NCBI GenBank assembly: GCA_020061125.1
Contig: JAGUYV010000451.1
Span: 1 to 5,193, forward strand
DNA: 5,193 nt
Direction of reading: 5' to 3'
Origin: a bacterium
GTDB taxonomy: Bacteria; UBP15; UBA6099; DSWB01
Shown: positions 1-5,193 of the stretch, piece after piece
How positions within the stretch are numbered: the stretch's first letter is position 1
Layout: every line of letters begins with the position of its first letter
The notes under the pieces: model-generated
Database searches by the model: none
What the model saw: only the letters and a program-made list of their open reading frames with translations
What the model was told of the DNA's origin: nothing
Program-made: the position numbers and the translations under genes

Positions 1-457
1 AGTGTTCGAGGCGGAAACCCAGTTCTTCGCGGGTCATGCGCAGGGCCAGTTCGCCCACCTGTGCGTCGCGCTCACGCAGCTTGCGGTTGCGGAAATGCTC
101 CAACGCGGCGCGAAGGTCCGGCGCCGGGTCTTTGGCCTGCGGCTGCCTGTGCCGCGCGCTCAATTCTTTTGACAGAGCGAACGGATCGCAATCCGCGGCG
201 CACGAACCGCGACCGGGTGCGGGAGTTGAATCCGGAAGCCGGTTTTCCGCGGCCTGCTTCTGGAGGTGTGCGCGAATGATTCCGTAGGCGCGGGTGATGT
301 TTTTGAATTCCGCGGCGGCCGCGGTTGCGCCGGGGTTGGCGTCGGGGTGATACAGCAGGGCCTTATGATGAAAGACTTTTTTTATTTGCTGCAGGCTGGC
401 GCCGGGGCTGACGCCCAGGATGCGATAGCTCTCTGCCAAGCGGTCGGTTTTTTTCAT
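1..457 (-). CDS. J-domain (DnaJ-type) co-chaperone, C-terminus beyond the window
   Basis: This gene encodes an N-terminal J domain, the module that docks on Hsp70 and stimulates its ATPase. The 152 visible residues begin MKKTDRLAESYRILGV. The J domain covers about residues 9-70, with helix II basic (IKKVFHHKALLY) and the diagnostic HPD tripeptide at 37-39, followed by a helix III ending near RAYGIIRAHLQ. A proline-rich linker (about 75-115) leads into a charged, probably helical segment (LRAALEHFRNRKLRER) that is still open at the left edge. No glycine/phenylalanine region or CxxCxGxG zinc motif is seen, so it resembles a class III J-protein rather than true DnaJ. The start is well fixed: an in-frame stop lies 15 bases upstream, with no other start between. 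GAAGGG lies 11 bases ahead. The ATG overlaps the stop of the upstream small ORF (ATGA). Being downstream of an Hsp70 gene, it is most likely that chaperone's partner (inference). Confidence 0.88.
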   Translation of the reverse strand, partial: MKKTDRLAESYRILGVSPGASLQQIKKVFHHKALLYHPDANPGATAAAAEFKNITRAYGIIRAHLQKQAAENRLPDSTPAPGRGSCAADCDPFALSKELSARHRQPQAKDPAPDLRAALEHFRNRKLRERDAQVGELALRMTREELGFRLEH

Positions 458-628: not shown

Positions 629-2344
629 TCACACGCCCACGGCTTCGCCCAGGTATTCATTCATGATTTCTATGGCGTGGCGAATCTGCGCGGCGTCTCC
701 GTGGCGCAGGGTCTGGTCAATGAAGTTCACGAGTTCCACGAAATCCGGATCGTTGACATGTTCTGCGCGGCCCTGCGCGATGGCGCCGTGCACGCGGTCG
801 CGCAGCCGTCGCGCATGGCGCAGCAGGGTGTTGCGGCCGATGAACAGCTCGTCTTCAGCGCGGTGCGCGGCCGCTTGTTCGAGCATGGCGTCCACGGCTT
901 TACCGCTCATCTTTTTTGTGCAGGCGGCCTGGACTTCGCGGCATGCGCCGGTGTCGCTGTCGCGCGCGCTCACATGCACGATGCCGTCGGCGTCAATGTC
1001 GAAGAGCACCTCGATGCGTGGCGCGCCGCGCGGGCCGGGCTTGATGCCGTCGAGCTGGAACCGGCCCAGGGAGAAATTGGCGCTGGCCCGCGCGCGCTCG
1101 CCCTGCAACATGTGCACTTCGACGCTGGACTGGTTGTCGGCCACGGTGGTGAAGATGCGGCTCATGCGCGTGGGGATGCAGGAGTTGCGCTCAATGATGG
1201 GCACGAACACATCGTTTTCGGTTTCGATGCCCAGGGAGAGCGGGGCCACATCCACAAGCACGAGGCCGTGCGCGCCGCCGGTCATGATGCCTGCCTGAAT
1301 GGCCGCGCCCGCGGCCACGGATTCGTCCGGATTCACGCACTTGAGAATTTTGTCCGCGCCGAAGATCTGCGCCAGAGTGCGCTGCACCAGTGGGATGCGC
1401 GTGGAACCGCCCACGAGCACCACGGCGTCTATGTGCTCCGGCGCCGCGGAGGCATCGGCCAGGCACGCGCGCACGATGTCCGCAATGTCCTCGACGAAAT
1501 CGTAGATGAGGTCCTCGAACTGCTCGCGTGTCACATCCATTTCCAAGTGGCGCGGGCCGTCTTTGTCCGCGGAGATGAAGGGCACATTGATGTTGGTGAC
1601 GGAGGCTGCGGACAACTCCTTTTTCACGGCCTCGGCCACCTCGCGCACCTTTTGCAGAGCCATGCGGTCCTGGCGCAGGTCAATGCCGTGCGCGTGCTGG
1701 AATTCGTCCATGATGTGGTCCGCGAGGCGCGCGTCGAAATCGTCGCCGCCCAAGCGGTTGTTGCCGCGCGTGGCCACCACCTCGTACACCGTGCCGGTGA
1801 CATCGAGCAGGGACACATCGAAGGTGCCGCCGCCGAGGTCGAAGATGAGAATGCGTCCGTCTGCGCTGCGGGGCAGCCCGTAGGCCAGGGCCGCGGCGGT
1901 CGGCTCGTTGATGATGCGCAGCACCTCGAGGCCCGCGGCCTCGCCCGCGGCTTTCACGCACTTGCGCTGCATGTCGTTGAAATACGCGGGCACGGTGATC
2001 ACCGCGCTGGTCACGGGCTGGTCCAGAAACGCCTGCGCATCGTGCTTGAGTTGCCGGATGATGATGGCGGCGATGTCCTCGGGCGTGTACTCTCTGCCGT
2101 CAATGTGAAGCAGATAATCGGAACCGAATTTGCGCTTGATGGAGGTGGAAGTGCGCTCGTGGTTGATGATGCACTGGTTGCGGGCGGGCGCGCCCACCAG
2201 AATTTCGCCATCGCGCGTGAAGGACACGGCCGATGGGGTCACGCGGTCGCCGCGCGCGTTGGGAATGATGCACGGCTCACCGCCGTCGAACACGGCGATG
2301 ACCGAGTTGGTGGTTCCGAAGTCTATGCCCACGGCTTTTGCCAT
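629..2344 (-). CDS. dnaK: Hsp70/DnaK-family molecular chaperone, compact form
   Basis: An ATP-dependent cytosolic chaperone of 571 residues. Nucleotide-binding domain motifs are intact: phosphate 1 GIDFGTTNS (6-14), Lys70 in IKRKFG, VPAYFND (118-124), connect 1 INEPTAAALAYG (145-156), phosphate 2 DLGGGTFDVS (169-178), adenosine motif VVLVGGSTRIP (308-318), connect 2 NPDESVAAGAAIQ (338-350). The linker VLVDVAPLSLGIE (362-374) is followed by a substrate-binding beta domain (LQGERARA, APRIEVLFDIDADGIVHVSA) and a helical lid to the end. E. coli DnaK has about 638 residues. This protein lacks about 24 residues between Lys70 and VPAYFND and lacks the disordered acidic tail ending in EEVD-like residues. 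An upstream in-frame ATG at 2443 would add 33 atypical residues. I chose 2344 because MAKAVGIDFGTTNS is the canonical DnaK N-terminus, although the nearest GGAAAGGG is 13 bases away. A J-protein gene follows, but no grpE is visible. It may be a paralog of the housekeeping DnaK. Confidence 0.93.
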   Translation of the reverse strand: MAKAVGIDFGTTNSVIAVFDGGEPCIIPNARGDRVTPSAVSFTRDGEILVGAPARNQCIINHERTSTSIKRKFGSDYLLHIDGREYTPEDIAAIIIRQLKHDAQAFLDQPVTSAVITVPAYFNDMQRKCVKAAGEAAGLEVLRIINEPTAAALAYGLPRSADGRILIFDLGGGTFDVSLLDVTGTVYEVVATRGNNRLGGDDFDARLADHIMDEFQHAHGIDLRQDRMALQKVREVAEAVKKELSAASVTNINVPFISADKDGPRHLEMDVTREQFEDLIYDFVEDIADIVRACLADASAAPEHIDAVVLVGGSTRIPLVQRTLAQIFGADKILKCVNPDESVAAGAAIQAGIMTGGAHGLVLVDVAPLSLGIETENDVFVPIIERNSCIPTRMSRIFTTVADNQSSVEVHMLQGERARASANFSLGRFQLDGIKPGPRGAPRIEVLFDIDADGIVHVSARDSDTGACREVQAACTKKMSGKAVDAMLEQAAAHRAEDELFIGRNTLLRHARRLRDRVHGAIAQGRAEHVNDPDFVELVNFIDQTLRHGDAAQIRHAIEIMNEYLGEAVGV

Positions 2345-2382
2345 GCGGGAATCACGACCCTTTCCGCGCGAACAACGCGCCT

Positions 2383-2409
2383 GGCAAACGCAGGCAACGC
2401 AGCCAACGC
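2383..2409. repeat. three 9-bp tandem units in the Hsp70 leader
   Basis: On the plus strand three adjoining units read GGCAAACGC, AGGCAACGC and AGCCAACGC, and share the pattern RGSMAACGC with small differences. They lie 39-65 bases upstream of the Hsp70 start, inside the predicted untranslated leader. If the upstream ATG at 2443 were used, they would encode cysteine-rich residues unlike any DnaK N-terminus. They may be slippage remnants with no function. Confidence 0.4.
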
Positions 2410-2470
2410 CATGCCTGGCGCCGCGCGCTGCCGGTTCATTCATGTGTGTGTTCTGTCCAAAACTGCCGGG

Positions 2471-3558: not shown

Positions 3559-4716
3559 TCACATCTTGATGGGCATGAGCACATATTTATAGTCCGGATT
3601 GTCCGTGTGGAACAGCGTGGCCTTGAGCGGTTCCGAGTACTGAAACACAACTTCATCCTCGGGCACGGCGTTCAGAAAATCGAGCACATAGCGCGAGTTG
3701 AAGGACACCGAGATCTTGCTTCCCTTCTGCTCGATGTCCACTTCCTCGCGCGCGCTGCCCACATCCTGGGTGCTGGACGAGAGCTGGAGCACATTGTCGG
3801 CCACGCTGAACTCAATGATGTACTGGTTTTCCTTGGCGCGGGCCATGATGGCTGCGCCGCGCACGGCGTTGGCCAGGCGCCCGCGCGCCACGCGGCACTC
3901 GCCCAGTTTCTCCGACGGAATCACTTTTTCATAATTCGGGTAATCGGCCTTGACCAGGCGCGAAATCATGTAAATGCCGTCCGCGGCAAAGGAAATGGCG
4001 TCGTCCTGCACGGTGATGATCACGGCGCCGGACGCGGTTTTGGCTTCGGCGGCGCCCTCTTCGGCCTTGTCGCCCTTTTCCGGCTTGGCCGGAGCGGGCA
4101 GGATGCGCAACAGCTCGGTGAGCGTGCGCGCGGGCACAATCACACCCTTGTCGCCAAGGGGCGCGGCCTGTCCCGGCACATGGAACCATGTCAGCCGGTG
4201 CCCGTCCGTGCTCACCAGGGCCAGTCCGCCGTTCTCCACGCCGAAATACACGCCGCCCATGAACGCCCTCGGGTCGTCCGGGTTTGTCGCGAACAGCGTC
4301 CTCTTGATGCCCCTCTCGAGCACGGCCGCATCCATGCTGAACTCCTTGCCGCTGGACATCTGCGGAAACGGCGGGAAGTCGTCGGACTCGATGCACTCGA
4401 ACTTGTACGCCGACTTGCCGCACTCCAGCGCAAGGGTGTTCCCGTCCAGATTGAAGAACACCGTCTCGTCGCCCATCACGCCCAGAACCTCGAGCACCAG
4501 GGCGCACGGCACAGTCACGGAACCCGCTTCCTCCACGGCGCACGCCATGCTCGTGCGGATCCCGATCCGGTGATCGTAGCCCACCAGGTTCAGCCGGTTG
4601 TCCTCCAGATCAAAAAGCACATTGCGCAGCACCTGCACATTGCTGCGCGCATCCGTGGCCCTCTGCGCTATGGTCAGATTCTTCGCAAGCTCCTCGCGGC
4701 TGCACGAAAATTTCAT
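3559..4716 (-). CDS. dnaN: DNA polymerase III beta subunit (sliding clamp)
   Basis: DnaN forms a ring-shaped homodimer around DNA that tethers the replicative polymerase and other clamp-binding proteins. The 385-residue product starts MKFSCSREEL and has the three-domain clamp layout (about 1-120, 126-255, 257-385). Diagnostic sites are STDGHRLTWF (169-178), which forms part of the partner-binding pocket, ADYPNYEKVIP (257-267) opening domain 3, NSRYVLDFL (340-348), and the C-terminal YVLMPIKM, equivalent to YVVMPMRL of E. coli. Length is slightly above the usual 366-380 because a charged Ala/Lys/Glu-rich loop is inserted at about 208-230. The start is supported by GGAGG seven bases upstream and by alignment to the family N-terminus. 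A promoter and origin-like DNA lie upstream, and a strong terminator follows, so it looks monocistronic. This differs from the common dnaA-dnaN-recF operon: no recF or gyrB follows. Confidence 0.97.
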   Translation of the reverse strand: MKFSCSREELAKNLTIAQRATDARSNVQVLRNVLFDLEDNRLNLVGYDHRIGIRTSMACAVEEAGSVTVPCALVLEVLGVMGDETVFFNLDGNTLALECGKSAYKFECIESDDFPPFPQMSSGKEFSMDAAVLERGIKRTLFATNPDDPRAFMGGVYFGVENGGLALVSTDGHRLTWFHVPGQAAPLGDKGVIVPARTLTELLRILPAPAKPEKGDKAEEGAAEAKTASGAVIITVQDDAISFAADGIYMISRLVKADYPNYEKVIPSEKLGECRVARGRLANAVRGAAIMARAKENQYIIEFSVADNVLQLSSSTQDVGSAREEVDIEQKGSKISVSFNSRYVLDFLNAVPEDEVVFQYSEPLKATLFHTDNPDYKYVLMPIKM

Positions 4717-4723
4717 CTCTGTT

Positions 4724-4728
4724 CCTCC
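4724..4728 (-). promoter_or_regulatory. ribosome binding site of dnaN
   Basis: GGAGG on the minus strand, seven bases before the dnaN ATG. It is a near-perfect Shine-Dalgarno sequence and fixes the start at 4716. Confidence 0.85.
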
Positions 4729-4763
4729 GTCATTAATGTTTCCAATCGTTTGTTTAAATGCTT

Positions 4764-4792
4764 ATTATATATTGTTATAGCCTGTTGGAAAG
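4764..4792 (-). promoter_or_regulatory. predicted dnaN promoter
   Basis: A perfect TATAAT -10 (4769-4764 on the minus strand) stands 47 bases ahead of the dnaN start in an AT-rich stretch. At 17 bases upstream the -35 position reads CTTTCC, a poor match, so an activator or another sigma factor may be needed. The upstream TACGC repeats end directly at this promoter, which suggests that whatever binds them could also affect dnaN transcription. Confidence 0.5.
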
Positions 4793-4797
4793 TGGAT

Positions 4798-4834
4798 TAC
4801 GCCAAAAATACGCACATTGTACGCAATCTTACGC
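4798..4834. repeat. four TACGC words on 11-11-10 bp phasing
   Basis: TACGC begins at 4798, 4809, 4820 and 4830. The last two units extend to TACGCAATCT and TACGCAATCG. On the minus strand the motif reads GCGTA, mostly TTGCGTA. Spacing of one DNA turn places every copy on the same helical face, as in iteron or regulator arrays. The array sits between the dnaN promoter and the first DnaA box. The binding protein is unknown. Confidence 0.6.
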
Positions 4835-4844
4835 AATCGCCTCG

Positions 4845-4853
4845 TGTGGATAC
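4845..4853 (-). promoter_or_regulatory. DnaA box (one mismatch)
   Basis: The plus strand reads TGTGGATAC, so the minus strand reads GTATCCACA against the consensus TTATCCACA. It lies close to the TACGC array and about 130 bases before the dnaN start, where DnaA could act on both replication and dnaN expression. Confidence 0.55.
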
Positions 4854-4964
4854 TATCTGAAAAGCATGTGAAAAGCAAGACGCCGCACGAAAACCCGCTC
4901 GCAGGCCGCAACATTACAGATCATTACGACATTTTTGCCCACAGCACCGATCCCCGCTTTTTTG

Positions 4965-5033
4965 CGGAAATCCGATCAACCGCGATCCGGAATTGATCCC
5001 CATGAACAGCCGGAAAATTTGATCCGCTTTCCA
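4965..5033. repeat. three CGGAA...GATC units with 23-bp period
   Basis: CGGAA starts at 4965, 4988 and 5011, exactly 23 bp apart. Each is followed 7-10 bases later by GATC (4974, 4995, 5021). The rest of each unit is diverged, so these are degenerate iteron-like repeats or a coincidence of short words. They lie in the centre of the GATC-rich section of the putative origin. Confidence 0.45.
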
Positions 5034-5045
5034 TAATCCATGTTT

Positions 5046-5063
5046 CCGATCCGCAATGATCGG
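5046..5063. repeat. inverted repeat CCGATC-N6-GATCGG
   Basis: Perfect 6-bp arms around the 6-bp centre CGCAAT, each arm containing one GATC. It lies 11 bases before the tandem DnaA boxes. It may be a site for a dimeric origin-binding protein, or simply part of the local GATC clustering. Confidence 0.45.
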
Positions 5064-5074
5064 GTTTCTGCATT

Positions 5075-5094
5075 TGTTGATAACCTGTGGATAC
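5075..5094 (-). promoter_or_regulatory. tandem DnaA boxes beside the AT-rich segment
   Basis: The plus strand reads TGTTGATAA (5075-5083) and TGTGGATAC (5086-5094), each one mismatch from TGTGGATAA. They have the same orientation and are spaced 11 bp start to start, about one helical turn. A closely spaced pair flanking AT-rich DNA is typical of the DnaA loading site next to an unwinding element. Confidence 0.72.
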
Positions 5095-5100
5095 AGGCGA

Positions 5101-5160
5101 AAATCAGCGAAAAATCCTTTATTAAAAGGAATTTTTAGATTTATAAAATGTGATCAATAT
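5101..5160. other. AT-rich segment, possible DNA unwinding element
   Basis: By direct count 12 of 60 bases are G or C, in a window that is otherwise GC-rich. It begins 6 bases after the tandem DnaA boxes. It includes an imperfect inverted repeat, AAAAATCCTTT (5110-5120) against AAAGGAATTTTT (5125-5136) with one bulge. That hairpin is AT-rich, so it is more likely part of an easily melted region than a terminator. Confidence 0.6.
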
Positions 5161-5193
5161 GTGTGCCGTGCGTCCGGTGAGCGCCGCCGTCAG
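5161..5193. other. GC-rich edge, possible start of the next gene
   Basis: Composition returns to GC-rich here. A plus-strand ATG at 5159 opens MCAVRPVSAAV to the edge, with AAGGA about 28 bases upstream, which is too far for a normal binding site. A minus-strand frame is also open from the edge. Neither can be assigned to a gene from 33 bases. Confidence 0.2.

Follow-up and report, generated by a model that had tools for sequence, protein, structure and literature searches.

Does the dense GATC cluster upstream of dnaN in an uncultured, unclassified bacterial lineage, far from E. coli and the Gammaproteobacteria, mark a replication origin controlled by DNA methylation? Control of initiation by Dam and SeqA is usually credited to a single clade of proteobacteria, in which it is held to have arisen. 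The window analysed here is the whole stretch of 5,193 bp from a metagenome assembly (G000; 4.1 Mb, 513 contigs, 79% complete). An initial annotation had pointed to the cluster and offered two readings, a methylation-linked control of the origin or an initiator motif that contains GATC. The checks that it had named included a search for a Dam-type methyltransferase and a SeqA-like protein in the genome and a comparison of the GATC sites with those in related origins.

The GATC cluster exceeds expectation from base composition

The initial count of nine GATC in 237 bp (4919-5155), eight of them in 4919-5061, compared with 14 over the remainder of the window, proved exact (start positions 4919, 4949, 4974, 4984, 4995, 5021, 5048, 5058 and 5152). 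With 23 GATC in total and 24 expected, the window as a whole is ordinary, and the clustering alone is unusual. Dinucleotide shuffles of 4919-5155 contained a mean of 1.9 GATC and reached nine in 0 of 5000 cases, and those of the complete intergenic region (4717-5193) contained a mean of 2.2 and reached nine in 2 of 5000; these figures are somewhat optimistic because the cluster boundaries were picked after the data had been seen. The density of the cluster is not explained by base composition.

A scan of 1.02 Mb of the genome, comprising 121 contigs (120 plus the contig carrying dnaA), identified no denser cluster: eight GATC per 143 bp compare with at most five elsewhere, and nine per 237 bp with at most seven anywhere else in the scanned sequence. 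At the genome rate of 4.1 GATC per kb, a Poisson model predicts 0.04 (143 bp) or 0.13 (237 bp) such clusters in 4.1 Mb. This expectation is small but not negligible, and the cluster is kept in no relative examined, as would suit a chance cluster without function. We nevertheless consider chance quite improbable, since the cluster lies in non-coding DNA beside dnaN, is accompanied by DnaA-box-like sites and occurs in a genome that encodes a Dam-type enzyme, a triple coincidence far less likely than the scan figure.

The cluster lies in a probable replication origin

The features of the locus are listed in Table 1. The intergenic region contains three DnaA-box-like sites, each a 9-mer that differs from TTATNCACA at no more than one position. 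The GC content of this region is 44%, compared with 60% for the genome. DnaA-box-like sites, an AT-rich region and adjacency to dnaN, all features of an oriC, are present. Since the region is non-coding, lies upstream of a native dnaN and has DnaA-box-like sites on either side of the cluster and an AT-rich stretch next to it, its sequence identifies it very probably as the chromosomal oriC. A weak hairpin at about 5111-5137, within the AT-rich stretch, is not significant (fold z-score -1.27).

Table 1 Features of the dnaN-proximal region (window coordinates)
Feature	Position	Strand	Remarks
dnaN, DNA polymerase III beta clamp, 385 aa	3559..4716	-	Pfam DNA_pol3_beta domains 1-3
Four GATC in 54 bp, dnaN 5' end	4558..4611		Motif count; counted as background in the initial annotation
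Probable oriC, 477 bp of non-coding DNA upstream of dnaN	4717..5193		Contig ends at 5193, so the view is partial
Three TACGCA repeats, 10-11 bp spacing (last two TACGCAATC)	4809..4838	+	From the sequence; between dnaN and the first DnaA-box-like site
DnaA-box-like site GTATCCACA	4845..4853	-	One mismatch
Core GATC cluster	4919..5061		Eight GATC; start-to-start gaps 30, 25, 10, 11, 26, 27, 10
DnaA-box-like site TTATCAACA	5075..5083	-	Two relatives have the identical 9-mer in the dnaA-dnaN gap, oriented alike with respect to dnaN
DnaA-box-like site GTATCCACA	5086..5094	-	2 bp from the 5075..5083 box
AT-rich stretch, candidate unwinding element	5101..5165		Adjoins the paired boxes; 72-78% AT (AT profile), the same range applying to 5091-5165
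Ninth GATC	5152..5155		Within the AT-rich stretch

The origin is visible only in part, because the contig breaks off after 477 bp of the dnaN upstream region, and another contig carries dnaA. GC skew is noisy, with one side of the origin alone on the contig. On that contig (C200, positions 1-2269), the contig edge truncates dnaA, and the gene after it is unrelated and is not dnaN. In the order relatives dnaN comes directly after dnaA; thus, unlike in these genomes, the dnaA-dnaN pair is split in the G000 lineage. A direct junction between the window end and the dnaA contig was not supported, as no common end was seen and the last codons are unlike the DnaA start of relatives.

The nearest relatives available belong to the same order only and none to the same family; they are metagenome bins, such as ADurb.Bin236, that are unclassified Bacteria in NCBI. 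DnaN is 52-58% identical to the DnaN proteins of these same-order genomes, which demonstrates that dnaN is native to the lineage and that the window is no gammaproteobacterial contaminant. DnaA-box-like sites are present in the dnaA-dnaN gap in three of the four order relatives examined, and none was found in the 500 bp upstream of dnaA in the order relatives examined. The dnaA-dnaN gap of relatives also contains ACGCAA or GCGCAA repeats that loosely resemble TACGCA.

GATC as the shared element of the cluster

Relative to GATC sites of the same genome, the flanks of the clustered sites carry no excess information (reached in 81 of 150 random sets), and GGATC/GATCC is found at 5 of 9 sites against 45% genome-wide. 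Relative to flanks taken from the origin itself, they carry slightly more information than expected (reached in 4 of 150 sets). A similarity of 70% links the stretches 4971-4990 and 5045-5064, both of which contain two GATC 10 bp apart. An extended GATC motif was rejected because of the missing excess against the genome's own GATC flanks, and helical phasing of the sites was not significant (p 0.2 at 10.5 bp). To judge from these comparisons, GATC itself is the sole convincingly shared element, which is more in keeping with a methylation target than with a longer initiator site. For the initiator motif suggested initially, which we hold to be a less likely possibility, the flanks yield no convincing consensus.

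These results bear on an alternative in which GATC forms the core of a protein-binding site, for instance a low-affinity DnaA-ATP site or the site of another regulator, and methylation plays no role. Initiator sites can contain GATC, as several low-affinity DnaA sites in E. coli oriC overlap it (PMC5145175), and the slight flank information and the two similar stretches, each with its GATC pair, would suit such sites. We judge this alternative unlikely, because the flanks do not exceed those of other GATC sites in the genome, GGATC/GATCC stays near the genome rate, and separate, recognisable DnaA-box-like sites exist while only GATC is convincingly shared. Because low-affinity DnaA sites are degenerate and several of them overlap GATC in E. 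coli, the methylation-target and initiator-site readings can, by analogy, coexist.

A Dam-type methyltransferase is encoded in the genome

The Dam-type methyltransferase that was to be looked for is encoded by G000 (C38:587-1510, minus strand). The protein matches TIGR00571 with 274 bits (cut-off 115), and its best solved relative is DpnM (168 bits), followed by E. coli Dam (118 bits). DpnM is the GATC methylase of the DpnII system. In the C38 enzyme the DPPY motif is conserved, as is the NGL-R-N / FNVP-GRY stretch found in both E. coli Dam and DpnM. This recognition stretch reads NGLYRVN...FNVPHGRY in the C38 enzyme, NGLYRVN...FNVPYGRY in DpnM and NGLCRYN...FNVPFGRY in E. coli Dam. From Dam structures, we take the stretch and the lysine of LKWAGGK to include base-contacting residues, which makes GATC the predicted target, and the match to DpnM and Dam renders this specificity likely.

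The enzyme appears to stand alone. No nuclease gene lies beside it on its short 4-kb contig, where its neighbours encode a receiver/PilZ-like protein and an RmuC-like protein (names from reading the sequences), and no DpnII-type nuclease was found in the 79% complete assembly. Restriction partners of methyltransferases may lie at a distance (PMC4752239). GATC is barely depleted genome-wide (O/E 0.92), as expected without GATC restriction. A GATC restriction-modification system was rejected on these grounds, with neither the DpnII family nor GATC avoidance detected in the assembly.

One neighbour gene on the C38 contig has full-length orthologues in the order at 48-49% identity, which assigns the contig to the lineage; its depletion of ACGT (see below) agrees with this. 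Gammaproteobacterial contamination is thus ruled out by the identity of DnaN, by this orthologue on the methyltransferase contig and by ACGT depletion on both contigs. A second, divergent D12-class adenine methyltransferase gene (contig C78, 1210-2274, minus strand) lies among phage-like genes, and the locus is probably a prophage. It was rejected as the source of the presumed GATC methylation, being below the TIGR00571 cut-off, devoid of the NGLYR / FNVP stretch and placed in phage-like surroundings.

A Dam-type enzyme could also methylate the cluster to control transcription of dnaN, or of a gene past the contig end, rather than initiation. The cluster is upstream of dnaN, whose 5' end bears four more GATC, and sites that orphan methyltransferases leave unmethylated occur preferentially upstream of genes, which hints at transcriptional roles (PMC4752239). 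However, a distance of 200-345 bp separates the cluster from the dnaN start, so that it sits amid DnaA-box-like sites and the AT-rich stretch and not directly at the gene, and GATC enrichment of genes flanking oriC has been reported in Dam-positive Gammaproteobacteria (PMC4786541). We therefore regard a purely transcriptional role as very improbable.

Readers of the mark and distribution among relatives

In E. coli, GATC methylation marks are read by SeqA and MutH, and MutH is a companion gene of the Dam clade. No match to SeqA or MutH was obtained in G000 (79% complete) or in six order relatives, with models that do find the E. coli proteins. A search for a DpnI-type winged-helix reader gave no match in G000, nor in any control genome, and so carries no weight. 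The absence of SeqA, MutH and the nuclease is weakened by the incompleteness of the assembly. Since SeqA was not found, the E. coli mechanism as such is unsupported.

The cluster is likewise missing from order-level relatives, so conservation of the GATC sites in related origins was not borne out at this distance. The dnaA-dnaN gap contains no GATC in each of four order relatives, and wider stretches around dnaN in the order contain at most four per 237 bp. G003, a genome of the same phylum, encodes a Dam-type enzyme 43% identical to the C38 enzyme, yet its dnaA-dnaN gap has no GATC. The phylum genomes other than G000 and G003 are without a close enzyme and, where dnaN was found, without a cluster. 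Cluster and enzyme therefore occur together only in G000 among the 7 phylum genomes compared, which include no same-family genome. In nine more distant genomes whose Dam-type gene exceeds the curated cut-off, no GATC cluster was found near dnaN (at most six per 237 bp).

The genomes with an enzyme but without a cluster demonstrate that a Dam-type gene alone does not bring a GATC-dense origin. Origins diverge completely at such distances, and many Dam-type genes belong to restriction systems; the missing conservation is thus no refutation of function. Methylation-linked control as initially suggested is supported in part: a Dam-type gene is encoded and the cluster lies at a probable oriC, while SeqA was not found and the order relatives have no cluster.

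A proposed model for methylation-dependent control of re-initiation

Together, the sequence data lead us to propose, with about even confidence, that this origin carries a GATC cluster targeted by the cell's apparently stand-alone Dam-type enzyme, which would control re-initiation via hemimethylation. From the observed anatomy and gene content, we infer the GATC specificity of the enzyme, the methylation of the cluster, the reading of the mark and its effect on initiation. In the resting origin, the C38 enzyme would fully methylate the sites. Passage of the replication fork would leave eight or nine of them hemimethylated together, and this state would probably alter the assembly of DnaA, both in the interval from the box at 4845 to those at 5075-5094 and along the AT-rich stretch (5101-5165). 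Re-initiation would then be delayed until the C38 enzyme has restored full methylation. Because SeqA was not found, the proposed reader of the mark is DnaA itself or another protein.

It is tempting to speculate further that Dam-type initiation control has arisen independently of the Gammaproteobacteria in this deep uncultured phylum, with a DpnM-like stand-alone enzyme and a non-SeqA reader of hemimethylation. We advance this tentatively, as a possibility that we would sooner doubt than assert. If the model is true, a GATC mark can be recruited to origins without the known reader, and a direct action of hemimethylation on DnaA can then be tested against the existence of other readers.

Comparison with known systems

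By analogy, the origin may work like the Dam/SeqA system. In density, the nine GATC in 237 bp found here are similar to the 11 that occupy about 246 bp of E. coli oriC (PMC5145175). In both, the sites are interspersed with DnaA boxes (DnaA-box-like sites here) beside an AT-rich stretch, the Dam-family enzyme has no adjacent restriction gene, and the start of a flanking gene is GATC-rich. In contrast to E. coli, SeqA and MutH were not found in the present assembly, the lineage is far from the Gammaproteobacteria, the origin lies beside dnaN, and the enzyme scores higher against DpnM than against E. coli Dam. We do not class the locus as a member of the Dam/SeqA system, because SeqA was searched for and not found.

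A methylome survey reported clusters of orphan-methyltransferase motifs at origins, namely GATC in Gammaproteobacteria, TTAA in Arthrobacter, CTCGAG in Nocardia and CTAG in Haloarchaea (PMC4752239). Cluster and orphan enzyme co-occur in those groups, and the actinobacterial clusters sit between dnaA and the polymerase III gene (PMC4752239). The locus described here is similar in that the predicted target of an apparently stand-alone enzyme is clustered in non-coding origin DNA. It differs in that the motif is GATC outside the Gammaproteobacteria, the specificity of the enzyme is a prediction, and the joint occurrence is confined to one of 7 phylum genomes. On this comparison, the case fits the same kind of origin cluster, with GATC in an unrelated lineage. 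A search of the literature outside subscription papers found no GATC-dense origins outside the Gammaproteobacteria.

The CcrM/GANTC system of Alphaproteobacteria involves another motif and another methyltransferase family. It shares with the proposed model the dependence of methylation state on fork passage.

Other features of the genome and window

The tetranucleotide ACGT is nearly missing in G000, with 57 occurrences in 653 kb (O/E 0.04) and none in the window against 12 expected; its counts are normal in order relatives. CTAG is also low in G000 (0.19). The depletion of ACGT may reflect an atypical mutational bias of the lineage or a restriction or modification system that targets this tetranucleotide. 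Near dnaN, the window also encodes an Hsp70-family protein (629-2443, minus strand) and then a J-domain protein (2-457, minus strand).
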